From a virus, in the IMG/VR virus record IMGVR_UViG_3300035490_000124, positions 1 through 32,862 of that record: 32,862 nt of DNA. The stretch is one strand, 5' to 3'. The notes beneath the pieces were generated by a model. That model saw only the letters and a program-made list of their open reading frames with translations. It ran no database searches and was not told where the DNA came from. Both the position numbers and the translations under genes were made by a program. Positions 4,985 to 29,780 of this stretch are shown here, piece after piece; position 1 is the stretch's first letter, and every line of letters starts with the position of its first letter.

Positions 4985-5044
4985 CTTAAAAAGATTCAAA
5001 CTCTTGAATTGATACAAATCTTAGTATGCTCACCACTTGCATAC

Positions 5045-5058
5045 GTATTTTAAAATAC
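5045..5058. promoter_or_regulatory. 14-bp perfect palindrome, candidate operator
   Basis: GTATTTTAAAATAC at 5045-5058 is its own reverse complement and lies 53 bases upstream of the ParB-methyltransferase ATG at 5112. A TATAAT sits at 5097-5102, close to that ATG, but no convincing -35 element is at the right distance. The palindrome could be a regulator binding site for this gene; this is inference from symmetry and position only. Confidence 0.35.
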
Positions 5059-5111
5059 CTCCCAATCGTTTCAATAGTTTTAATCCTTTTAACCTATATA
5101 ATTACAAAAAT

Positions 5112-6791
5112 ATGGAATCGCAAATAACCACTAAAATAACAATAGCGTCAATAATCGTTTCAAACCGCCTTCGCATCGACCACTCAAACAGCGACGGCTT
5201 AAAGGAATCCCTACATGAAAACGGCACCATCCAACCCATCGTACTCACGCTTCAAGCGGACAATACTTATCGTCTTCTCGCAGGAGGTAGGCGTCTTAGT
5301 TTTCTTAAGGAACTCGGCCACGAATTCCTCTACCACGGGTCGGTCTGTGACCCTCTACATCCAGGCTTTGTTCTTGGAAGTGAACTTCCTGAAGACAAAC
5401 TCCACGAGTTGGAAATTGAAGAAAATATTAAGCGCAAAAACATGTCTTGGCAAGAGCGCGTGCTCGCCATCGACACCATTCATAAAATCAAAAAGCGTCA
5501 GGCCGCACTTGAAAGTAACCAATGGGGGGAAAAAGAAACCGCGAATCTCTTAGGAATGAACACTACATGCACTGTGAACTACGCGCGAACAATCGCAGCA
5601 AAGCTCCGTGCAGAGATGCTTCCTGATCAATCAGTTTCCCCTAAGGCAAAATACTGGAATTGCACTTCTTTAACCGATGCGTATCGCCTGCGTATGCAAG
5701 AAGAAGAAGACCACATTAATACCGAACTCGCTAAGCGTATGGCTTCGGCTAATGGCACTATTATAAACACATCACCCACAATCTTCCCCCAAGACAAAAA
5801 CGAAGAAGAAATAACAGGTCTTGAAGGTCTGTTCGACACCGAAGAATCTTCCCTTTCCACTTCCACCTCTTCAACGAATGAACCCACCTCCACCTCTACT
5901 TTATTTCCCACCATAATTCAGCTTCGTGAAAAAGCCCGTGGAGGTTACGCGAATCTCACAAAAGACGAAGCACGTACTTTATACCTTTTAAACCCCCTCA
6001 ACCCTCCTGAAGACTTTGAAGCCTATCACGATTTAAAGTCTTCTCAGTCAAAACTCAATTTAACAATTCCACTTTCCTCAAAGCTATTCAATGTGGACTG
6101 CATAAACTTCATGCAAAACAACCCCTTGACCTTCGACCACATAATCACCGACCCCCCTTATGGAATAGACATGGCGAATCTCGACCAGCAAAACACTGGA
6201 ATGGAAAACATCGCAAGTGTCGAAGCCGAGCATACCGTCGAAGGAAATTTACTTCTCCTCTCGCAGTTTTTTCCCGCTGCTTATACTTGTTTAAAAGATA
6301 ACTCCTTTTGCATAATCTGGGCCGACCAAATGCTTTGGACTATTCTTTACAATTGCGCGATACAAGCCGGCTTTAAGGTTCAACGCTGGCCTATCGTCTG
6401 GTTAAAATCTCATCGCTGTTTAAACCAATCCGGGAATCAAAACTTCACAAAGACCACCGAAATCGCAATGGTATGCCGCAAAGGCAACGCCACGATGATA
6501 ATTCCCGGCGAGAATGCTCACATCATCGCGATGCACGATGAATACAAACAAGAACTCGGCCATCCTTTTGTCAAGCCCTTCGCCGTGTGGGAGCATTTGA
6601 TTAAAGCAGTTACAATGGAAGGGCAAACAATTCTTGAACCTTTCGCAGGACGGGGAAGTAATATCATTTCATTAATCCGTTTGAAAAGAAACTTCATTGG
6701 ATGTGAAAAAGACTCTGCTCATTATAATGCGTTGATTGAAAACGTGAAACGGCATTATTTAAAATTCAACCCTAATTTTTCCTTTGCATGA
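5112..6791 (+). CDS. ParB-like domain fused to beta-class DNA methyltransferase
   Basis: A 559-aa fusion. The N-terminal part is a ParB/Srx-type domain: ENGTIQPIVLT, then YRLLAGGRRLSFLKELG, then EIEENIKRKNMSWQERVLAI. A serine/threonine-rich linker (STSTSSTNEPTSTS) follows. The C-terminal methyltransferase has catalytic motif IV (HIITDPPYGIDM) before the SAM-binding motif I (EPFAGRGSN), followed by FIGCEKD, i.e. the beta-class order. DPPY favours N6-adenine methylation. It probably modifies phage DNA against host restriction or marks specific sites. The frame is open from 5037, but the ATG at 5112 was preferred because it directly follows an A-rich context (ATTACAAAAAT) and starts at the domain. 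ParB-methylase fusions are known in phages. No cognate restriction enzyme is seen. Confidence 0.92.
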   Translation: MESQITTKITIASIIVSNRLRIDHSNSDGLKESLHENGTIQPIVLTLQADNTYRLLAGGRRLSFLKELGHEFLYHGSVCDPLHPGFVLGSELPEDKLHELEIEENIKRKNMSWQERVLAIDTIHKIKKRQAALESNQWGEKETANLLGMNTTCTVNYARTIAAKLRAEMLPDQSVSPKAKYWNCTSLTDAYRLRMQEEEDHINTELAKRMASANGTIINTSPTIFPQDKNEEEITGLEGLFDTEESSLSTSTSSTNEPTSTSTLFPTIIQLREKARGGYANLTKDEARTLYLLNPLNPPEDFEAYHDLKSSQSKLNLTIPLSSKLFNVDCINFMQNNPLTFDHIITDPPYGIDMANLDQQNTGMENIASVEAEHTVEGNLLLLSQFFPAAYTCLKDNSFCIIWADQMLWTILYNCAIQAGFKVQRWPIVWLKSHRCLNQSGNQNFTKTTEIAMVCRKGNATMIIPGENAHIIAMHDEYKQELGHPFVKPFAVWEHLIKAVTMEGQTILEPFAGRGSNIISLIRLKRNFIGCEKDSAHYNALIENVKRHYLKFNPNFSFA

Positions 6792-7042: not shown

Positions 7043-9769
7043 ATGATCACTCCTCCCTTTCCCAACTCCCTCGCTATCGGCGGCCCTGTTCCAAACCTCT
7101 CCCCAACAGCCCTGGGCTTTTCTTTTCGTCTCGCCATTGTCGGTGAAGCCCCTGGTGAAGAAGAATGTGACCAACGCAAACCTTTTATTGGCGCCTCTGG
7201 TCGTGTTCTTGACAATATCCTTTCCCAACTCAATGTCCCCCGTGCCGCCTGTCTAATAGCCAGCGTCTGCCAATACCGACCACCGGGCAATAAGATAGAA
7301 TTATTTTCCAAAACCGGTCCTGAATTCGCCCACGGCCTTGCGGAATTAAAAAAGGACTTAGACGCCTTTCAACCCAACTGTATTCTTCTTCTCGGTCGTT
7401 CCGCGCTTTACTTCGCAAAAAACGGCGAGGATAAAATCGGAAACTGGCGGGGTTCTTTTTTCATCGGGTCTGGAGTCTTCGCAAACTACAAATGCATCGC
7501 CACTTACCACCCAGCCGCTTGTCTGCGTCAATATAAATGGATGCCTATCTTACGCATGGACATCAAGCGTGCTTTTAACGAATCGACCTCCCCAGAACTT
7601 CACCTCCCTATTCGAGACTTTCATATCGACTACGACGTCGATATGATCGTTTCTCGTCTTTATAATTTTATCGAAAACTCCGAAACCGTTTCTTGCGACA
7701 TCGAAGGCGGACTTGACTGTATGTCTTGCATCTCATTCGCTTCTTCGTCTTCATACTCCTTTATTGTACCCCTCGCAAAGCTTGACGGCTCTTCCTACTG
7801 GTCTTCTTTAGAAGAAGAACTTCGTATATGGAAAGCACTCTCCGCTATTCTCGCCTCCCCCAAGGTTAAAAAGATTCTTCAAAACTGTCTCTATGACGCT
7901 TTCGTTCTTGAATACGGATACTCTTGCTTCGTATCTAACATTGTCGATGACACGATGTTAAAATTTTGGGAACAATACTGTGAGCTTGAAAAAAGCCTGG
8001 CCTTTCAAACATCTCTTCTCACAAAAGAACCTTACTACAAATCTGAACGTAAGGCTTCTGACTACCACATTCACTATACATATTGTTGTAAGGACTCCGC
8101 CGTTACTTTCGAATGCAATGACCAACTTACAAAACTCCTAACTCCCACGTCTAAAAAACATTATGAATTCAACCACTCCCTTCTGCAAATCTTCCGCTAC
8201 ATTGAACTGCGTGGAATCAAATACGACACACAAAAAGCCACGCAACGCCTTCAAGAAGTCGATCACCATATTCATCTCCTACAAAGGGAGCTTGACCTGC
8301 TTGCAGGAGTTGGAGTCGAAAAACTTTTACTCGACCTTAAAGAACACCCTTCAAGATCTGAAACACGCTCTGCTTCAAGATTTGAAATACTCCTTTCCAA
8401 AATACAATCTGAAATTTGTTATAAAAAGAACCCCGGTCAGCCAAAGAAAGACTTTGAGGAAGCTTATCCAACAATCAAACTCCTTATCGAAGAAGTTGCA
8501 GAAACTCAACGTGAGTTTACCCCCGAGGAAATTGGATACCTTAATTCTACAATAGGCTGGTCGATGAATATCAAAGGAAAGGACTTTAAACACTTTCTTT
8601 ACGATGTTTTAAAACTTCCTATACAATATAATACAAATCCCGAAACAAAGGTTCGCTCAATCACCACCGATTATGATGCTCTTTTACAAATCCAAAAATC
8701 CAAGACTCCTCACCCCGCCGTTGCCTTGGCCATTGACATTGGAATCATGCGCACTCGGAGTCAAATGCTTCACATCTTTGCCGACCCTGATGGAAGAATC
8801 CGCGCGGGTTACAATCCAGTCGGTACGACAACTGGGAGAATTTCTTGCTACACATCGCCGACCGGTTCGGGATATAACTTGCAAACAATACCTGACGCTA
8901 ATTCCCTTCGGCCCCCTGGTCATCCTATACACAAAGGTATGCGTGACTTATTCATTGCCGACGAGGGATACTTTTTATTCCAATGTGATCTTAAAGGGTC
9001 GGATGGTTGGACTATTGGGGCTATTCTCAACAAATATGGAAGCCCAACAATGTTGGAAGACCTACGCTTCGGAATCAAGCCAGCGAGTCGAATTTGTTAC
9101 ATGCTACGCCACGGGAATCATTCCCTTATCGGAAAGCAAAGAGACGAGATTAAGTCTCTTCTCAAGGAGGTTAAGAAAGACGACTGGGATTATTTTGCTT
9201 GCAAAGTTGGCATTTGGGGCGTTTGTTATCTCATGGGTGTTGATTTACTTTCTGATCAAATAGGCAAACAGAGCGAAGGAAAGGTATGGTTAAGTAGGAG
9301 TGAAGTAACAAACTTCAGGCAAGCCGTGATGCTCGGTTATGATATTCAGAAATTTCACAACTGGGGGACGAGGGAAGTATGTCCTAAGCGTATCCTATCC
9401 GCGTCCAATGGATTCACTAGAAGATTCTTCGGTCGATCGACAGACATCCTCGGAGAAATACTTGCACATCTCCCTCAAGTATATACAACGTACGCAACAA
9501 ACATGGCAGCAAGGAGCCTTTGGTATGATAAAGAAAACAGAATTCAAGATGGAGATAAAACAAAACTCAAAATCCAACCCCTACATCAAGTCCATGATGC
9601 GCTTATCGGACAATTCCCCAAAGAAGACCTTTCCTGGGCAGTTGGTAAGATTAAATCCTACTTTAATAATCCCGTCGAAATCGCGGGTCAAATAATAACA
9701 ATACCTTTTGACGGGAATTATGGAACAAACTGGGCATTTGATGAAGAATCCAAGGTTGGAAATATTTGA
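7043..9769 (+). CDS. polA: UDG-like domain fused to family A DNA polymerase with 3'-5' exonuclease
   Basis: A 908-aa replicative polymerase. Residues 1 to about 185 match a family 4/5-type uracil-DNA glycosylase fold: VGEAPGEEE, PFIGASGRVLDNIL, then TYHPAACLR. Next is a DnaQ-like exonuclease with SCDIEGG (D219, E221), QNCLYDAF (D285) and YCCKD (D351). The polymerase domain has motif A with D649 (CDLKGSDGW), motif B with K721 to Y729 (KVGIWGVCY), and motif C QVHDALIG (D852). Phage SPO1 DNA polymerase also has a UDG-like N-terminal region, so the architecture has precedent. Oddities: the N-terminal C-x2-C expected for the Fe-S cluster of family 4 UDGs is absent, and motif C has Ala where Glu is usual. 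Whether the glycosylase domain is active, or is a uracil sensor, cannot be told. Confidence 0.95.
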   Translation: MITPPFPNSLAIGGPVPNLSPTALGFSFRLAIVGEAPGEEECDQRKPFIGASGRVLDNILSQLNVPRAACLIASVCQYRPPGNKIELFSKTGPEFAHGLAELKKDLDAFQPNCILLLGRSALYFAKNGEDKIGNWRGSFFIGSGVFANYKCIATYHPAACLRQYKWMPILRMDIKRAFNESTSPELHLPIRDFHIDYDVDMIVSRLYNFIENSETVSCDIEGGLDCMSCISFASSSSYSFIVPLAKLDGSSYWSSLEEELRIWKALSAILASPKVKKILQNCLYDAFVLEYGYSCFVSNIVDDTMLKFWEQYCELEKSLAFQTSLLTKEPYYKSERKASDYHIHYTYCCKDSAVTFECNDQLTKLLTPTSKKHYEFNHSLLQIFRYIELRGIKYDTQKATQRLQEVDHHIHLLQRELDLLAGVGVEKLLLDLKEHPSRSETRSASRFEILLSKIQSEICYKKNPGQPKKDFEEAYPTIKLLIEEVAETQREFTPEEIGYLNSTIGWSMNIKGKDFKHFLYDVLKLPIQYNTNPETKVRSITTDYDALLQIQKSKTPHPAVALAIDIGIMRTRSQMLHIFADPDGRIRAGYNPVGTTTGRISCYTSPTGSGYNLQTIPDANSLRPPGHPIHKGMRDLFIADEGYFLFQCDLKGSDGWTIGAILNKYGSPTMLEDLRFGIKPASRICYMLRHGNHSLIGKQRDEIKSLLKEVKKDDWDYFACKVGIWGVCYLMGVDLLSDQIGKQSEGKVWLSRSEVTNFRQAVMLGYDIQKFHNWGTREVCPKRILSASNGFTRRFFGRSTDILGEILAHLPQVYTTYATNMAARSLWYDKENRIQDGDKTKLKIQPLHQVHDALIGQFPKEDLSWAVGKIKSYFNNPVEIAGQIITIPFDGNYGTNWAFDEESKVGNI

Positions 9770-12623: not shown

Positions 12624-12997
12624 AAACTTTCAATCTCCTTTTCATACGCTTCCCAATTGACCCCAAGAGTTTCAGCTAATTGCTTTTCATACTGCATAGC
12701 AATTTGATGCTGTTTATAATAAGGTGCAAGAACACAATCTCCCGGCTCTTCTACATTCCCAGGGAGACGCTTTGCTTCAAACTCAATATCGAATTGTGTA
12801 ACCGCTTCTTCATCCACTCCGTCTTGAAGACACAACAACGCCTCGATCAACTCGTGTAAGATAATAAGCTGTTCATATCTTGCATCGCTCAAACGTGAAC
12901 TGCGAATTTGCAAGACATTCTTATCATCGACCCACCAATCACCCACTGTAGGATAACGGTGTTTATCATGTTCAATTACTTTTGCATTGATGTTCAT
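12620..12997 (-). CDS. Zincin-like putative metalloprotease, 125 aa
   Basis: A small protein with an HELIE motif at residues 48-52 in the context YEQLIILHELIEALLCLQDG. This resembles the HExxE/HExxH zinc-binding helix of zincin-like phage proteins. The rest is acidic and helical (EEAVTQFDIEFEAKRL; QIAMQYEKQLAETLGVNWEAYEKEIESL). Its ATG overlaps the large ejection gene's stop (TAATG), and its stop overlaps the ATP-grasp start (ATGA), so three genes are translationally chained. Catalytic activity is not certain because a third zinc ligand is not obvious. It could alternatively be a structural zinc-binding protein. Confidence 0.8.
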   Translation of the reverse strand: MNINAKVIEHDKHRYPTVGDWWVDDKNVLQIRSSRLSDARYEQLIILHELIEALLCLQDGVDEEAVTQFDIEFEAKRLPGNVEEPGDCVLAPYYKQHQIAMQYEKQLAETLGVNWEAYEKEIESL

Positions 12998-15900
12998 TAG
13001 TTAAAAATACTACTCCTTCCTTTTTTATTACCTTTTTTCTTCTGCACTTCCTTCACCTCCTCAGGACTCGTTCCCATTATTTGAAAGAACCTATTACTAA
13101 CTTCCTGATTAGACCCCTTAGCCTTGTCATAAACATTTTTTTGTTCTTCATTCAAAGAACTATAAAACTCCTCCTCTCTTTCCTTACTTCCCGTGAACCT
13201 ATACTTCGCATAGGTTTCATAATACTTCTCAAGCTGTTTATCATTCTTTCCCCCTTCTTCTTTTAACCTTTCAATTTGCTCCTTAGCAACTTTCATATCG
13301 CCCCTTCTTAGGGCGTTATTCAAATCAAAATAATCACTCTCCGGAAAACTTCCTTCATCCTCCTTCACTCCATTAGCCTTCTTCCACTTCCTTGCAAGTT
13401 GCATCGTCTGTTGTCTTTCACTAGGTGCTATATCCACAGGGCCTATTAGATTATTTAACAACTGCCTTTCTTCTTGCGTTCCACCTTTGCCTTTTATATA
13501 ATCAGCCACGCCCTGTGCTCCAATAGGACTTGGAAACACTTCGCCTTTAATCAACCTTCCAACCTGTCCTTCCTTTTTTTCCATAGGTCCAGTTAATCCA
13601 TACTTCTTCTCCGTAATCCACGAAGCAACGGGTTGCATACCTGCACTTAGATGTCCTCCAAGTACATCTTTAAACGCCTCGCTAACTGAATCAACATCAT
13701 CAACCTTACCTCCGAGAGCATCTCTCACAAGAGCCTTTTCAAATCCATGAGTAAGTTCAAAGCTACTCGCTGTAGGGTCAAGATAGAAATCTCCAATCTT
13801 ACTATCAAGCTCGTGCCCTTCTTCCTTACGCATTGGACTTCCCGTGGTCGCTTCATTAATCAAAGCATTCAATGTAAGATAAGCAACAACCCCCGTGCCC
13901 ATCATTCTCGACTGCATATTGAACTGTGGCCTGAGAACTCCTTCCTCTTTTAAAGTTCTAGCAGTATCATAAACTCCCTTCACCGCTCCCTTCACCGCGC
14001 CTGCTTCAAACCTCGCTTCACCTTCTGTCCAATTCGGTGCAAGGAAAAACAGCTGCGCCAGGTCACGATAACTGGCACGAGTCAATAAACCTTGTTTACC
14101 TAAATTACCAAAGGCCACATTTATATCATGGCTCACTTTTCTTGCAACTTCTCTTTCACTCAATTTCGGCCATTGTTTTCTATAAACATCATAAGCCTTA
14201 TATCCAACATCTTCCATCAACCCCGCTTGAAAGACGTCAAAAAGATACCTTGTAAAATCCCCCGTAGCCGGAAGCTTTTCTGCCCAATGTTGATTGAACG
14301 CATCTGTCGTACGACCAGTATTAAACCCTTCAGTTGTTAGTAAATTACTAACCCTCTTTCTTCTTAACGCTTCATTTGTTTCTTCCTTTGTCCAACCTTC
14401 TTCTTTCGCAATAACTTGTATTTCTTCAGGACTTCTATCACGAATAAGTAATCCTTTAGTAATTTCAGGAAGCTTTCCTTTTACGACATCTCCAGCGGTT
14501 GCTTCCAAGCCCCTTCTTCCAATACGGGCCATGTGAACGGTATCAAACAACAGCTTGACGTGTTTTTGCACACCTCTAGCTTCCATCAACATAGGACCGA
14601 TTTGACCCCTGGTGAAAATACTAGGATCGTAAATCGCAGTGACAATAGACTTATACCCCTCTTTCACAAGTCGCTTTGTTCCTGCGACATCTACCACCAC
14701 ATAGCCTTTGGGTATTTCCTGACCTTCTTTCCATTTCTTTAATATATTTTCTCCCGAATCAGGGTCTTTCATTCCTTCCATTAACTTATCAAACACTTTA
14801 CTCTGCACATAAAGCTGTTGGCCTTTTTGTAAACGGCTTCTGAGCAATTCCAAAGAGTCAAAACTCCCCGCCTTTTTCCCCGCAATTAACCTATCCGCAA
14901 GCGTTGCAAAATTCCTTTTTTGAGTAAAGCTCGTCATGTCACTTGTATCATCCGCGAGGTGCATCATATAATTCGGCACATAATTTATATGATGTCCTGA
15001 GTCTCTTTCCCACTTTACTTCTTGATCTAAAGCTTTGCCGTATTTCTCAACATGCTTTGAGTATTTATCCCAGTTGTTTAAAGCCTCTTGAGCGTAACGA
15101 ATGAATGCTTCTTTATCTTTACTTTCAGGAGCTTTACTTTTAACTTCATCCAATTGCTTTTCAAGAACTTTCCTATCTAATCCACTCTCTCTCATTAGTC
15201 CAATAGCCCCTGAGAGATTATCGTAAGCGGTTTTTGCCCGACGATAAACAGGAGATAGCCCGGCGGCTTTTAAAATCCGTTGAGGATCCTTTAAACCGAA
15301 ATCACGCAATGCAGGGCCTTTTACATCGTTGGTTATTTCATTGGCTTTGTTTCTTGCGATGTTTATCGTAGCGTCTTTTGTACGTTTTATTTGATCAATC
15401 GCGGGACGACGGGAGGCCCATTGAGAAACTTGATCAACAAGTTTTTTCGTGCCGTTAACGACGGGTTCCATTAAGATAGAACCACTTTCGGGAGTTAGTT
15501 TTTTATGTGAGGTTCCTTCAAGCTTTCCAAGGTCTTCGAGATTTTCCTTCGTGATTTCTAATCCCCCATGTAACTGCTGCCACAATCCTACTTCCTCTCC
15601 CCCTCCTTTTCCTCGTCCCTTTTGTGTTTTCTCTGCCACGCCCTTTTCGCCACCTCCTTCAGTCCCTCCGGTTTGTTGTGATAGCTCATTCCTTTGACTG
15701 CCTTCCCGCCCTTGGAATGTTTCGCCTCGGTTTCCTTCGCCCAACGTTTCGCTATTTCCGGATGATTCGCGAACAGGAACCCCTTTTGTTTCTTCGATTT
15801 GAACGGCATTTTGTACTCCTTCTTTTACTTGTTGTGGTTGCTGCGGTTGTATTTGTGCTGCTTGCCTTGCACTCGGAACTGCCTCTGCCTTCGCAGGACT

Positions 15901-16935
15901 CCCGAATGAAATCTTCCCACCTTCTACATTTTCAATAGGTTTACTCTCCAACTCACTAGTCGGCTTTACAATCTGTCTCGCCTGCAATCTCTGTTGCAAA
16001 CTACTTAACTCCTCCTTGCTCAACTCAAAGGGGGCATTCACTCCTCTTTCACCAATAATCGGATACCTTTCCCCCTCAGGCATCTGTCTCACTTTCTTTT
16101 CAATATCCTCCTTCTGTGCGTGGGCCATCTCACTCCGCTTCTGTGCCTCTTGTTCGAACTTCAACTTTTCAAAAGGACTCATTTGACTAACATCCGCCAT
16201 CGGCACTGATTCATTTCCGCCTTCAAATCTAACTCCCGGACCTATCTGTCTTTCCGGTGGGACTCTTCCTTGTATTTGATCCACATCACTAGCTGTGGTC
16301 TTTGCGTTTACATCCCCGACATTTAACTCACTTCCCATCTTAGGCTTAGGCTTGACTAAACTCTTCGCCCCCAACGCGGCTAGAATCGCATCCGCAGTAC
16401 TTACAGTTCTTTCTCCCAGAGTTTTATCCGGTGCCGCTGCCTCACTGGCAGCTTGCGTACCTCCCATTGCTAGGCCTAATCCCATTAATAACTTAGCAAT
16501 CTCTCCCCCACCAATTGCAGGAAGCTGTGCAAGAGTCTTAGGATCAGTCAGCATATCCGCAAAGTGACTCGGAAGGCTTTGTAATCCCTCTCCAATTGTC
16601 TGTGGCTTTGGCTGACCCCCGCTAAACTTAGTTCCTACAACTTCAGGTACTACACTTCTTCCTACTGCCGCATTTATCGTATGCCCAGGAATATTATACG
16701 GGTCACTCAATTCCTTTGTAACTTGCTCAGCTCCTGTCAACGTCGGTACCATAGCCGCTATGAATTTGTCAAGAGGGCTTATCTGCAATCCAGTCGGAAT
16801 CTGTTTTAGATTTCTACTCCCTGATTGCAAAGCCCCTGCGGGTTGAATGATATCCTCCTTTGGAGCGACAAATCCCCCGGTGCTTTTCCCACTAGCGGAT
16901 TGAATTAACTCAGTCTCAGGTGCAATGAATGGCAT
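12997..16935 (-). CDS. Large internal virion/ejection protein (gp16-like by position), 1312 aa
   Basis: A 1312-aa protein, very close in length to T7 gp16 (1318 aa) and at the same relative position, after three Ala/Gln-rich proteins. N-terminal ~200 residues are Ala/Gly-rich with hydrophobic stretches (AIGGGEIAKLLMGLGLAMGG). Residues ~200-450 are charged, Gln/Glu/Gly-rich and probably disordered. A helical region follows from ~450. A segment near residue 965 (LAQLFFLAPNWTEGEARFEAG) recalls the LPD38-type domain of phage polyvalent and internal virion proteins. The C-terminus is highly charged and ends KKKGNKKGRSSIFN. The expected role is DNA ejection across the envelope. No lytic transglycosylase motif was recognised. 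A second gene is nested in residues 376-450. Leader: AAATAAATAAATAAATGT, no Shine-Dalgarno. Confidence 0.9.
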   Translation of the reverse strand: MPFIAPETELIQSASGKSTGGFVAPKEDIIQPAGALQSGSRNLKQIPTGLQISPLDKFIAAMVPTLTGAEQVTKELSDPYNIPGHTINAAVGRSVVPEVVGTKFSGGQPKPQTIGEGLQSLPSHFADMLTDPKTLAQLPAIGGGEIAKLLMGLGLAMGGTQAASEAAAPDKTLGERTVSTADAILAALGAKSLVKPKPKMGSELNVGDVNAKTTASDVDQIQGRVPPERQIGPGVRFEGGNESVPMADVSQMSPFEKLKFEQEAQKRSEMAHAQKEDIEKKVRQMPEGERYPIIGERGVNAPFELSKEELSSLQQRLQARQIVKPTSELESKPIENVEGGKISFGSPAKAEAVPSARQAAQIQPQQPQQVKEGVQNAVQIEETKGVPVRESSGNSETLGEGNRGETFQGREGSQRNELSQQTGGTEGGGEKGVAEKTQKGRGKGGGEEVGLWQQLHGGLEITKENLEDLGKLEGTSHKKLTPESGSILMEPVVNGTKKLVDQVSQWASRRPAIDQIKRTKDATINIARNKANEITNDVKGPALRDFGLKDPQRILKAAGLSPVYRRAKTAYDNLSGAIGLMRESGLDRKVLEKQLDEVKSKAPESKDKEAFIRYAQEALNNWDKYSKHVEKYGKALDQEVKWERDSGHHINYVPNYMMHLADDTSDMTSFTQKRNFATLADRLIAGKKAGSFDSLELLRSRLQKGQQLYVQSKVFDKLMEGMKDPDSGENILKKWKEGQEIPKGYVVVDVAGTKRLVKEGYKSIVTAIYDPSIFTRGQIGPMLMEARGVQKHVKLLFDTVHMARIGRRGLEATAGDVVKGKLPEITKGLLIRDRSPEEIQVIAKEEGWTKEETNEALRRKRVSNLLTTEGFNTGRTTDAFNQHWAEKLPATGDFTRYLFDVFQAGLMEDVGYKAYDVYRKQWPKLSEREVARKVSHDINVAFGNLGKQGLLTRASYRDLAQLFFLAPNWTEGEARFEAGAVKGAVKGVYDTARTLKEEGVLRPQFNMQSRMMGTGVVAYLTLNALINEATTGSPMRKEEGHELDSKIGDFYLDPTASSFELTHGFEKALVRDALGGKVDDVDSVSEAFKDVLGGHLSAGMQPVASWITEKKYGLTGPMEKKEGQVGRLIKGEVFPSPIGAQGVADYIKGKGGTQEERQLLNNLIGPVDIAPSERQQTMQLARKWKKANGVKEDEGSFPESDYFDLNNALRRGDMKVAKEQIERLKEEGGKNDKQLEKYYETYAKYRFTGSKEREEEFYSSLNEEQKNVYDKAKGSNQEVSNRFFQIMGTSPEEVKEVQKKKGNKKGRSSIFN
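15588..15809 (-). CDS. Nested small basic phage protein (MPFKSKKQ family-like), 73 aa
   Basis: A complete 73-codon gene in another frame, same strand, inside the large ejection gene. It begins MPFKSKKQKGFLFANHPEIA and continues KRWAKETEAKHSKGGKA. This resembles a widespread group of short basic phage proteins starting MPFKSxxQ with a following HPEIAKRW-like segment. Evidence that it is translated: a strong Shine-Dalgarno (AGAAGGAG) exactly 6 bases before the ATG, and codons mostly ending in G or C, unlike neighbours. The overlapped stretch of the host protein is low-complexity (GEGNRGETFQGREGSQ), as expected if this frame dominates selection. Function of the family is unknown to me; the basic charge suggests nucleic-acid or capsid association. 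Confidence 0.78.
   Translation of the reverse strand: MPFKSKKQKGFLFANHPEIAKRWAKETEAKHSKGGKAVKGMSYHNKPEGLKEVAKRAWQRKHKRDEEKEGERK
15816..15823 (-). promoter_or_regulatory. Strong Shine-Dalgarno of the nested gene
   Basis: Minus strand AGAAGGAG followed by TACAAA and ATG. It is the best-placed Shine-Dalgarno I found in the window, where most genes instead have A-rich starts, and it supports the nested start at 15809. Confidence 0.8.
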
Positions 16936-25310: not shown

Positions 25311-28300
25311 TTAAGGATAAGTCGCCATTGGTTTTACCACATAACTAGACGACGTGTTGCTATACACAATAGCCATCTGCCCATTCGTCCACACACCAAA
25401 CCAAACGTTGGTTTGCGTAGCGGAATAGGCCGGTACTAGAGACCAGTTGAAACCCGCTGCCGTATTCTGCGTTCCAACGAATCCGTTCGTACTGGTGATG
25501 TAGCCGGAAGCAATTAGTTTACCCGTGACATTCACCTGTACTACGCCCGGTCCCCCCAGCAGCACAGAATTATCTACGTTGTTTACGGCGTTGTAGCCGA
25601 TGGCTGTCCGGTTGAGCGACCAGTCGCTTGATACGTTCGCCCCGTACCCGATGGCAGTATTATAGCCCTCGTTTGAATAATTACCGACCAACGCATTATA
25701 GCCGACGGCAGTGTCGCCGCTCTGACTGTTTTGATTCATTGAGTTGGCTCCAACCGCCACGCTGTTGAACGCTGCGACCGAGCCGGACCCCGTATTGGAG
25801 TTCGTGCCCATGGCCCCGTGGCCGATGGCTACATTGTAGTTCCCACCCACATTGTAATTCATCGCCGATGCTCCAATCGCTACATTATACCCGCCAGTGT
25901 TGTAGTAGAGTGAATTGATGCCAATCCCCAAGTCATATGTACCGGAGCTACTATTGAGTGAATTGTACCCAAGGCCCACACTAAAAACACTAGCACTGTT
26001 TTGCATCGAATTAAACCCGACAGCCACATTGCCGTTCACTCCGGCCGACACGCCGTGCATCGCCCCGTATCCAAGTGCCGTATTGGCCAGGGAAGTGTTG
26101 GTGCTGTTCCCTGCATTCCCCCCAAAAAAATAGTTGTTTTGTAAGGGTTGAGCCTGGAACAGTTCGACCCCATCAAATATGATGTCATTTGCGTTAATCA
26201 GTTTTGGACTGCCAGCCAAATCTTCAACCAGCGAAGCCCGCGTCACAAGATTAGATGATAGCGGCACAAACAGAGAACTGCCTGCCACACCCGCGTAAGC
26301 CCCGATACCCATCACCAAATACCCCTCGTCATTGTAATGCACCGATCCATCCGCCGCGATCAGGGAGACCGGCGGAATGTCATTCGACGCCGCCCATATA
26401 TCCAACGGAAAAGCCGGATTCCCATGCGAATGGATGAAATGATAAACATCAATATAGTGGTTCGTAAAAGTGGTGGCCAGTTGCATGTTGACATTGGTAA
26501 TACCTGTATAATTGGAAAATCCATTACCCCCGGGATACTCGTTGGTGGCGTTAAGAACTGACATCACCCAGTAGTTGGATGGGGCATGCACGTTGATGCA
26601 ACTCCAAATGTTTGAAATTGTGACGCTTGGATTCGTATAGTTTATATCGTTTGGCAAAGTGGTGTCATTCCGCCCCATCATAAAGATTGTCGGCAAGTTG
26701 GAAATGCTTGGTGTATTTGTCCACATTGCCAGATAATTGGAAGTAATCAGCGTTGATGAACCGCCAACAAAAGCGAAGTTGGTCGCCAGGCAACCGGCCA
26801 TGGCGCTAAACGCCTTCGGATAGTTCATATAGGTGCCTTCATACCCGGCCGTCAAACTGTCACCGACAAAAACCCATGTGTTCGTGGGTGAAATCGGCGC
26901 GTTCAAATTTGTTGCCACATTCAAGTTGGTCAGGCCCGCGCCGTTGCCATTCACCACCCCTTGCAGGATTGTATTGGTGATGTTCGCATTACCCAGCACC
27001 ACCTGCGGTCCTAAAACTGTCACGCCTTCACCTATAGCAATTCCAACATCTGTGGAAGCCCCAGCACCAATGGCCACACCATTTGGGCTGGTTACTAATG
27101 CATGGGAACCAATGGCCACACCATTGGTTCCGTGCAGAAAAACGGCGGCGGAATAACCGATGACTGTTGATGCAGGACCATTCGCAGCAGATTCTTCACC
27201 TGCTGCGAAGGAAAAATCTCCAGGTGCGCTGGCGGCGATTCCGAATGCTTCGCTGCTTGCACCCCACACACCGGGATCAATCGAATAGAATGCAGACCCC
27301 GAATTTCCCCCGTTCGTTAAATTTGATCCGGCAGTCACATTCAAGTTGGTCAGGCCCGCGCCGTTGCCATAATAAGTTTGCCCGGTCGGCAATGACACGC
27401 CAGTAAGGGGAATGACGCTAAACCCGGTATTTGTAGAAATGATCGATTCGCCAATATTGAGCGAATTTGCCCCTGCGTGGTAAATACTGGCCACTTCTCC
27501 AGCGGAAAGGCAGTTGGTGAACCAGGCCACCTCGTCCATATATCCATAGCCACTGTATCCCGAGCCACTCAGAGTCAGAGTCGTTTCGCCAGAACCATCC
27601 AACTTGCCGCCAATGGGGACAGGAGGCAGCGCAATGCCATTGGTGTAAATCGTCATCTGCTCCAGGTTGGCTACAACCGCGACATGCACCCATTGGTTCA
27701 TTGGTAGAACAGCCGCGAAGTATCTGTAACCCTGGGAAAATCCGAGTTGAAAGCCATGTCCTGATGTGGAATAGAATAGATCCCAAGCACTTTCGCGAAC
27801 AGGGTTAATATCAGTCCCAGCGTTAGTAGTGATGAAGAACCAACCCGAGTACGACCAGTTTGTGAACACGTTAAGATTATAGGCCGGACTTGAGGCGGTC
27901 AGCACGGCGATAGACTCACCAATAAAGCTAACCGCCTGCATGGATTCTCCATTTGCGACATAGGATTCAAGTCCTCCATAGACAGAGGCATTGTTTCCCC
28001 CCACGACATCATTCAAGTTCCAATTAAATGGCCACCAACTTACCAGACAATTGGTGACACTCGCTAAGACAAAGTAACCGTTGGTGTTGCTGTTGTAAAG
28101 GAAATTGAACCCACCAAATGCCGTCTGTGGTACCGGCGTAAGATTATTATTTACCAGGATGTTACTGTTTGTTGCAGCGAACTTTACCGAACCACCGAAC
28201 GTCCCACTAAGCACATTCAAATTTGTTGCTGTTCCGTTCAAGCTGGAAATATACGAAGAGCTTGGCGGAATAGTCAGATTGGTCAGGCCGGAGCCGTTGC

Positions 28301-29780
28301 CCTGAAAGTTTGTGCTCGTGACTGTGCCGTCCGAGCTAATAATAACCGTGCCGTTAGGCAAGGAAAAGGTGGATGCAACAAGATTGGTGCTGCCAGCCAC
28401 ATTCAAGTTGGTCAACCCAGAGCCGTCACCTTGTTGCGCAATTTGTTGAAAAACCGGGATCATGTTGGTGAATATCTGGGCCTCGCCCATTTGATTAGGA
28501 TGAATCCCATCACCATAATTATTATTGGCATTCCAGTAGCCATTGTCGTTCGGGTCAACTGCATGTGCCGCTTCAATAAACCCGGACAGCGGCCATGGAA
28601 CAGTGCGAATCCAGTTGTTGTACTGTATGCGGATTGCCTCCTGGTTCGTGTCCCTTAAGGAGGCTGAGTTTGTGTAAGGGAATGTACTGCTGTCCGGTGT
28701 CAGTGTCCAGCCATATACCTTTTTCCCAAGCTTGTAATCGTTGAGCCATCCAGTGACAGCCAAATTGGTTAGGGTCGAAAAACTGTCGAAATTTTGGACT
28801 AAACAATCATTTACTCCCAGACAGTTCAACACCACGCTGGAATTAAGCGCGAGTTGATTGTTGATCGGATTAGTGTTTTCGACATAGAAGAGATTTCCGG
28901 AAGTGGCTAGGTTCATCAGCGGGATACCGTATGCACTGGCCAAGACTGAGGCCGCATTAACTGTGTAGTTGAAACCTGCCAGTTGGGGACTGGAACCAGA
29001 ACTGATGGAATCACCACGCAAGGCAATGCTGATTGGTGGAGTGATCGCGTTGTCCGCCCGTTGGGCAATGATGCTAAAAGGCGCGACGCAGTAGGTTTCA
29101 CCATCTGGAATGGTTCCAGCCAAGTATAGATTCGGGGCATCGGTGGCAATAATGGCACCTCCTCCAAGTCCAATGGTTCCAAGACCATTGAAGTAGTTGT
29201 CGACGGACACCACTGACGCCTCGACCAAGCTGCCATTCGTCGTGGTCGCATACTCACGAATGTAGAAATTGGTATTGGCCGGTATGACTAGCCCTGCCAA
29301 AGTGTCCGAGAAATAGTTTGTCTTTCCCGGCGTCACCAGCATATTACTGTTCCCACCCCAAGTAAACGGGGTCATGGTTCCAACCGGGTACTCGACCGAG
29401 GCGTAAACCGTGTAACTGTTGGAGAAACTAATGTCGCCTTGTCCTTGTTGGTAATATCCAGGAACGGAAACAGCAATGTTTTTGAGCGGAAAATATCCAG
29501 ACTGATAAGGCTTTCGAGTCATGCAGGCCATGTTCAAACCAGACGGGGTGGTTTGGTTTGCAGTTGCTGAGATCGTATAAATCACCCCACCAAAAAGTGT
29601 TGTATAAGGAATCTTCGACTGCACGGCAGAAACGGCGATACCATAAACAGCATTGCTACTGAGGCTTTGCCCGGGATAGTTGCTACTGAGGCTTTGCTCG
29701 GGATAGGGTCCGTTAGGATAGGCGACCACTTCATTCACTATTGCCAAGAAAAGGCAACTCAAAGTTAAAAATTTCTTCAT
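25311..29780 (-). CDS. Signal-peptide-bearing tail-fibre/adhesin-like protein with two SGNH hydrolase domains
   Basis: A 1489-aa multidomain protein. It has an N-terminal signal peptide (MKKFLTLSCLFLAIVNEVVA), then two 9-residue repeats (YPEQSLSSN, YPGQSLSSN). The first SGNH/GDSL hydrolase has S258 (RGDSIS) and D424-H427 (DGIHPN). G-[DN]-G-[SA]-GLTNL repeats follow (four seen), with a LamG-like domain (VSWWPFNWNLNDVVGG; WSYSGWFF) and YadA-type head repeats (GTNGVAIGSHA). The second SGNH has S975 (VGDSLT), a GRND block and H1148 (DGSVH). A long run of NTALGY/NVAIG-like head repeats closes it. This is the profile of a host-binding fibre that deacetylates or cleaves surface glycans. The signal peptide is odd for a virion part. 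GC content is well above neighbours, suggesting transfer. Confidence 0.9.
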   Translation of the reverse strand: MKKFLTLSCLFLAIVNEVVAYPNGPYPEQSLSSNYPGQSLSSNAVYGIAVSAVQSKIPYTTLFGGVIYTISATANQTTPSGLNMACMTRKPYQSGYFPLKNIAVSVPGYYQQGQGDISFSNSYTVYASVEYPVGTMTPFTWGGNSNMLVTPGKTNYFSDTLAGLVIPANTNFYIREYATTTNGSLVEASVVSVDNYFNGLGTIGLGGGAIIATDAPNLYLAGTIPDGETYCVAPFSIIAQRADNAITPPISIALRGDSISSGSSPQLAGFNYTVNAASVLASAYGIPLMNLATSGNLFYVENTNPINNQLALNSSVVLNCLGVNDCLVQNFDSFSTLTNLAVTGWLNDYKLGKKVYGWTLTPDSSTFPYTNSASLRDTNQEAIRIQYNNWIRTVPWPLSGFIEAAHAVDPNDNGYWNANNNYGDGIHPNQMGEAQIFTNMIPVFQQIAQQGDGSGLTNLNVAGSTNLVASTFSLPNGTVIISSDGTVTSTNFQGNGSGLTNLTIPPSSSYISSLNGTATNLNVLSGTFGGSVKFAATNSNILVNNNLTPVPQTAFGGFNFLYNSNTNGYFVLASVTNCLVSWWPFNWNLNDVVGGNNASVYGGLESYVANGESMQAVSFIGESIAVLTASSPAYNLNVFTNWSYSGWFFITTNAGTDINPVRESAWDLFYSTSGHGFQLGFSQGYRYFAAVLPMNQWVHVAVVANLEQMTIYTNGIALPPVPIGGKLDGSGETTLTLSGSGYSGYGYMDEVAWFTNCLSAGEVASIYHAGANSLNIGESIISTNTGFSVIPLTGVSLPTGQTYYGNGAGLTNLNVTAGSNLTNGGNSGSAFYSIDPGVWGASSEAFGIAASAPGDFSFAAGEESAANGPASTVIGYSAAVFLHGTNGVAIGSHALVTSPNGVAIGAGASTDVGIAIGEGVTVLGPQVVLGNANITNTILQGVVNGNGAGLTNLNVATNLNAPISPTNTWVFVGDSLTAGYEGTYMNYPKAFSAMAGCLATNFAFVGGSSTLITSNYLAMWTNTPSISNLPTIFMMGRNDTTLPNDINYTNPSVTISNIWSCINVHAPSNYWVMSVLNATNEYPGGNGFSNYTGITNVNMQLATTFTNHYIDVYHFIHSHGNPAFPLDIWAASNDIPPVSLIAADGSVHYNDEGYLVMGIGAYAGVAGSSLFVPLSSNLVTRASLVEDLAGSPKLINANDIIFDGVELFQAQPLQNNYFFGGNAGNSTNTSLANTALGYGAMHGVSAGVNGNVAVGFNSMQNSASVFSVGLGYNSLNSSSGTYDLGIGINSLYYNTGGYNVAIGASAMNYNVGGNYNVAIGHGAMGTNSNTGSGSVAAFNSVAVGANSMNQNSQSGDTAVGYNALVGNYSNEGYNTAIGYGANVSSDWSLNRTAIGYNAVNNVDNSVLLGGPGVVQVNVTGKLIASGYITSTNGFVGTQNTAAGFNWSLVPAYSATQTNVWFGVWTNGQMAIVYSNTSSSYVVKPMATYP
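26916..26950. repeat. 35-bp identical repeat inside the fibre gene, copy 1
   Basis: The 35 bases encoding GNGAGLTNLNV are identical to those at 27336-27370. Diverged copies occur around 28270-28310 and 28397-28440. All encode G-x-G-x-GLTNL motifs between domains, so they could act as recombination joints for domain swapping. Confidence 0.85.
27336..27370. repeat. 35-bp identical repeat inside the fibre gene, copy 2
   Basis: Second identical copy, 420 bases from copy 1. Recombination between them would remove exactly 140 codons, including the YadA-like segment, in frame. Confidence 0.85.
29653..29706. repeat. Tandem 27-bp repeat after the fibre signal peptide
   Basis: Two tandem 27-bp copies (29653-29679 and 29680-29706) differ at one base and encode YPxQSLSSN twice. 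This is a recent in-frame duplication just behind the signal peptide. Confidence 0.9.

Follow-up and report, generated by a model that had tools for sequence, protein, structure and literature searches.

A putative MPFKS-family phage gene nested out of frame in a large structural-block gene, with same-phase nests in unrelated host genes of other phages

We analyzed a virus record of 32,862 nucleotides (the 32.9-kb window, by which we mean the whole stretch of DNA under study), in which a short open reading frame lies complete within a much longer one, on the same strand and in a different frame. The short frame occupies positions 15588-15809 of the minus strand, with its ATG at 15809 and the end of its stop codon at 15588; it comprises 73 codons and a stop and encodes the 73-aa protein MPFKSKKQKGFLFANHPEIAKRWAKETEAKHSKGGKAVKGMSYHNKPEGLKEVAKRAWQRKHKRDEEKEGERK. 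Its host gene, also on the minus strand (12997-16935, 1312 codons), encodes a large protein of the structural block. The position, the length and the separate ATG of the small frame had been described correctly in the original prediction, and the frame meets the definition of a fully nested out-of-frame gene. Alignment delimits a conserved core of codons 1-26 (15732-15809, minus strand) with the pattern MPFKS..Q......NHPEIAKRW.KE, in which residues M1, P2, F3, S5, Q8, P17 and A20 are invariant across 66 relatives. A Shine-Dalgarno-like sequence, AGAAGGAG, is found at 15816-15823 (minus strand), 6 nt 5′ of the nested ATG, within an A-rich leader that reads AAGAAGGAG-TACAAA-ATG and has AAGGAG at a spacing of 6. 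The host-frame segment over the nested gene (15588-15810, minus strand) corresponds approximately to residues 376-450 of the large protein, beginning NAVQIEETKGVPVRESSGNSETLGEG..., and is a hydrophilic linker, a low-complexity G/E/Q/T/S/R stretch. Both this low complexity and the preference of the nested frame for codons ending in G or C (GC3 of 0.68 vs 0.365 in the host gene) agree with what had been noticed initially. The name 'ejection protein' that had been attached to the 1312-aa protein is unproven: it is a guess from gene order, and the protein has no Pfam or PHROG family match.

Elsewhere in the window we noted a 584-aa protein with a ParB-like N-terminal domain and a DNA methylase domain (5037-6791, plus strand), a 908-aa protein with a uracil-DNA-glycosylase domain and a family A DNA polymerase (7043-9769, plus strand), and a tail-spike-like protein combining GDSL lipase and concanavalin-type domains (25311-29780, minus strand). 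Most genes of the window have no Shine-Dalgarno sequence and their leaders are A/T-rich, which hints at a Bacteroidetes-like host.

By its length alone the nested ORF is near chance, as a 73-codon frame remained open in 11% of host-gene versions recoded with synonymous codons; longer out-of-frame ATG ORFs, of up to 196 codons, occur inside other large genes of the window. The Shine-Dalgarno sequence, which had been put forward as a strong one, is present 6 bases upstream of the ATG but constitutes weak evidence, because only five of the 26 listed window genes have a Shine-Dalgarno match of at least 5 bases. The decisive evidence came from homology. We built a profile from 38 MPFKS proteins that stand free in other phages and searched it against the six-frame translation of the window, where the nested frame was the sole significant match (E=4e-20; next best 0.34). 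The nested protein (P0002) was also matched weakly by PHROG family phrog_1375, of unknown function (E=4e-4), which matches free-standing relatives as well, and the window copy carries both the N-terminal MPFKS..Q and the [HN]PEIAKRW helix by which membership in this phrog_1375-like family is judged. The resemblance to an MPFKS family of small phage proteins, suggested originally without database searches, was thus recovered with a profile made of free-standing proteins only, and homologues proved to be abundant, with 430 related stretches in viral contigs. Despite its near-chance length and Shine-Dalgarno sequence, homology places the nested ORF far beyond chance, and we regard it as truly belonging to MPFKS, a family of small basic phage proteins.

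MPFKS is normally a gene of its own in the head module, beside portal, adaptor or terminase genes. The free-standing members are the more widespread ones and include those of Streptomyces phage FlowerPower, cyanophage P-RSP2, C75C1 and 023Pt_psg01. They adjoin portal, head-tail adaptor and terminase genes (among 52 neighbor proteins, five match portal, five match adaptor and several match terminase families), and the window copy sits in the structural block, inside an unclassified large gene. One base is often shared between a free copy and the upstream stop, which suggests translational coupling. In an AlphaFold2 model (mean pLDDT 79) the conserved core folds into two short helices, and the third helix, long and basic, makes up the tail. 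Comparison of this fold with the PDB gave no match, and with BFVD none better than E 0.1; profile searches against NCBIfam and the PDB sequences found no match to the MPFKS protein, and the string MPFKS occurs in none of the papers searched. We infer, without its having been shown, that this small basic protein serves in head assembly or DNA packaging. In MPFQS-type relatives (L007, L013, L034, L035, L051, L053, L060, L065, L068 and L078) the corresponding sequence is the N-terminus of proteins of 260-725 aa with repeated GG[IL].[ND].FR.K motifs and is not a separate small gene.

To judge which of the two frames is constrained we compared synonymous rates, as had been proposed with the original prediction. 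The window pair provides only one relative, 99% identical, whose host gene differs by 32 substitutions, all outside the nested segment, a number too small for a selection test; the comparison was carried out in homologous nests. Among hosts at the scaffold position, that is, in the portal-major capsid interval (57 distinct sequences, 620 pairs), third-position differences amounted to 12.5% over the nested core vs 40-45% in the flanks, and synonymous differences at identical degenerate host codons to 0.044 over the core vs 0.27 upstream and 0.35 downstream. The host synonymous differences of a second set (80 sequences) were 0.083 in the core and 0.32-0.42 in the flanks, and those of a third set (29 sequences, 29 pairs) were 0.085 and 0.35, respectively. 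Host wobble positions are 4- to 8-fold quieter over the nested core than in the flanks, a coding pattern which indicates that the nested frame is under purifying selection where relatives are numerous enough. The proposal that the nested gene is the functional frame is thereby supported, and neither of the two results that would have refuted it, a lack of homologues or free drift in the nested frame, was found.

Within the core, the nested wobble bases are the most variable and the host wobble is conserved, which bears on the possibility that function resides in the host-frame peptide (DAIQ...PGDSE...), with MPFKS only its shadow. The host-frame residues are indeed alike across unrelated hosts, and the nested wobble is biased in all of them (CCG at Pro17, ATA at Ile19) such that a host Gly and Ser are kept. 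This explanation is nevertheless very improbable in our judgment, not only because of the wobble pattern over the core but also because the HPEIAKRW subfamily and a second one (WDC, described below) have different residues in the middle of the host peptide, and because MPFKS is free-standing in many phages that have no such host frame, where its TTT and CCT codons would create stops in the DAIQ...PGDSE frame.

Codon choice in the nested copies shows that the open host frame has been maintained. CCT before Glu was seen in none of 64 nested copies vs 32 of 64 free ones, and GCT before Lys in none of 64 vs 18 of 64; TTC preceded Lys in 63 of 63 nested copies, but here the scan pattern itself required TTC. 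When nested copies were randomly recoded with synonymous codons, the host frame stayed open with a probability of ~0.002 on average, and recoding of the window copy left it open in 0 of 20000 trials. At Pro17, Glu18 and Ile19 the same wobble bases are preferred in the different host families, and the host-frame shadow is acidic, at -0.22 per residue compared with ~+0.1 expected under neutral codon choice. The host gene seems to be read through the nest as a hydrophilic linker. An alternative is that the MPFKS gene is an ordinary free-standing one between two separate genes and that the single long host frame is coincidental, an arrangement that would be in line with the frequent one-base overlap of free-standing copies with the upstream stop. 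That overlap, however, lies in the other phase, nest-free host homologues run uninterrupted through the site, and the recoding results show how rarely the host phase would stay open by chance over a nested copy; we find a coincidence of this kind scarcely credible.

Several MPFKS genes were found inside long ORFs among 80 loci of relatives. A pattern scan in which codon 3 was fixed as TTC, and which enriches nests since TTT before Lys is a host-frame stop, yielded 100 matches, 83 of them nested and all of these in one phase; after duplicate removal there were 64 nested same-strand copies and none in the other same-strand phase. In the shared phase, a host codon starts at the nested wobble base. 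The second subfamily, MPFKS..Q...C....P.WDC..W (WDC), was found via Flavobacterium phage isolates, and a scan that allowed either Phe codon gave at least 109 distinct copies among the matches listed, all nested and in the same phase. We sorted the host families with the nested part masked. The first is the gene at the scaffold position (~340-420 codons), homologous to the Elemovirus gp27 'structural protein'; the second is a giant structural gene of up to 3859 codons that includes Elemovirus gp18 and UOF82488 of ctfjg026; the third is the 1312-codon gene of the window, and the fourth a 1913-codon gene of contig L070. No mutual similarity was detected by phmmer and hhalign between the window gene, the L070 gene and the giant gene. 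MPFKS genes are thus fully nested in no fewer than four host genes that are unrelated to one another, and the phase is always the same. In two contigs, L113 and L150, the scaffold-position host frame stops soon past the nested gene, possibly owing to assembly frameshifts or to decay of the host gene. In 68 records of Flavobacterium phage isolates the nested copy, here in the giant gene, lies under a 'structural protein' annotation only, and the one record that was checked in detail lists no nested gene. As a rule, gene finders drop any gene wholly contained in another, and for this reason the annotation of many tailed phages lacks this conserved MPFKS gene.

The fixed phase cannot be attributed to chance openness, as no same-strand phase is open less often (1.5-2% stop-free vs ~22% for the other). 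Either all nests descend from copies purged of stops in that phase, which could move only there, or some separate function attaches to the peptide encoded in the host frame. A 44-column tree, too short to distinguish the two, placed nested copies at several positions among free ones, with support too weak to count origins.

Comparison of hosts with and without a nest provided clues to how the arrangement came about. In seven nest-free scaffold-position hosts, the arm before a conserved LPE...ETG anchor (found in five) measures 83-98 residues, compared with 122-134 residues in the nested hosts, whose nested genes have 44-48 codons. Hosts without the nest are shorter by approximately the nested length, which points to the insertion of an older gene and not to birth by overprinting; the nested frame is considered older and the host-frame segment newer because the free-standing family is the wider one. 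It had originally been left undecided whether the small gene was inserted into the linker or overprints it, and for the scaffold-position host it is insertion that gains support, while overprinting birth does not. Insertion in the window's own host gene is inferred. Scans of viral contigs with the 1312-aa and 920-aa proteins retrieved only one contig, 99% identical and with the nest present too, and tblastn against phage records found no relatives of the host gene. In that contig (L082, 6001-10116, the relative of window 12997-16935), the host protein has an extra tandem copy of ~59 residues upstream of the nest, showing that the linker region also grows by duplication.

Every genome tested had one MPFKS copy, the sole exception seen being L172, with two different MPFKS genes in one contig. 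Phages with the nest in the giant gene (G002, G004, G005, G006, G018, W01 and W02) also possess the scaffold-position gene, without a nest, and in scaffold-nested phages this gene carries the nest. Conversely, the scaffold-nested G013 has a giant-gene homologue (phmmer E 7e-21) that is nest-free. These empty counterparts imply that MPFKS changed its host gene within one broad phage group, with the phase kept.

Nests in several unrelated genes might also result from a selfish homing-type insertion that spreads between genes. The ShiLan domain is an in-frame, stop-free insertion in a phage DNA methylase, at a predicted tolerated loop, that hides an HNH endonuclease read out of frame and has relatives that are separate genes (PMC11855218). 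The anatomy of MPFKS is similar, with an in-frame stop-free insertion predicted to be a tolerated loop, the real product out of frame and relatives that are also separate genes. Homing is nonetheless improbable, since the product is a basic helical protein of 40-73 aa for which searches of Pfam, NCBIfam, PDB sequences and folds gave no nuclease match, each genome has one copy, the free copies are in head modules, and no mixed nested and empty alleles were seen among close relatives. As no nuclease match was found, MPFKS resembles ShiLan as an arrangement and is not a member of it. It further differs from ShiLan in that its tiny product is a conserved single-copy one, its hosts are virion genes, the phase is the same in at least four host families, the start signals are conserved and both frames are constrained.

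The start signals were conserved most clearly in one set of flavophage-type nests, in which A was present at -3/-6/-12/-13 in 93/100/100/98% of copies vs 51/51/51/33% at same-phase host control sites; two other nested sets agreed, less sharply. Adenines at these positions raise initiation in Flavobacterium johnsoniae (PMC6847099). The window copy and that of L070 have SD-like leaders rather than A-position signals. Because the ATG and Met-Pro-Phe are conserved, initiation at the nested ATG is favored over frameshifting from the host into the nested frame, which was ruled out by their exact retention and by in-frame stops a few codons upstream. Read-through of the upstream gene as the source of the nest was ruled out as well, since free copies with the one-base stop overlap use the other phase. 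The nested frame may thus start at the internal ATG by internal initiation, an inference that rests on start-signal conservation alone, with no expression data.

With a probability of roughly 0.85, we propose that 15588-15809 is an old head-module gene lodged in a disordered linker of a large virion gene and translated by internal initiation, where translation itself, the insertion into the window's host gene and the role of the product are inferred. A ribosome on the host gene would read through the segment as extra hydrophilic linker, and a second ribosome would start at the nested ATG of the same mRNA and produce the 73-aa protein.

Fully embedded out-of-frame phage genes have been described (PMC5295617, PMC8227390). 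They include lambda Rz/Rz1 and phiX174 B, E and K, each known from one host gene. Like them, nested MPFKS is a small same-strand gene wholly inside another with its own start; unlike them, it recurs in unrelated host genes and changes host between related phages. The weakly matching phrog_1375 is unannotated and says nothing on nesting or function. In classical overprinted viral genes, two proteins are obtained from one DNA stretch and disorder eases the conflict (reviewed in PMC8227390). The nested frame of such pairs is usually the new one, and MPFKS would reverse this story, with an old gene inside and a new linker outside. It would also show that one gene can switch its host gene while keeping one reading phase, and would offer natural dual-coding pairs in which both frames are traceable through evolution. 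The unannotated nested copies include those of cultured Flavobacterium phages, in which they are directly testable. It is possible, and we suggest it tentatively, that a copy purged of stops in one host phase can move harmlessly into any disordered linker in that phase. If this is true, MPFKS would travel as a dual-coding cassette between unrelated virion genes, which would explain both the fixed phase and the swapping of nests between the scaffold-position and giant genes.
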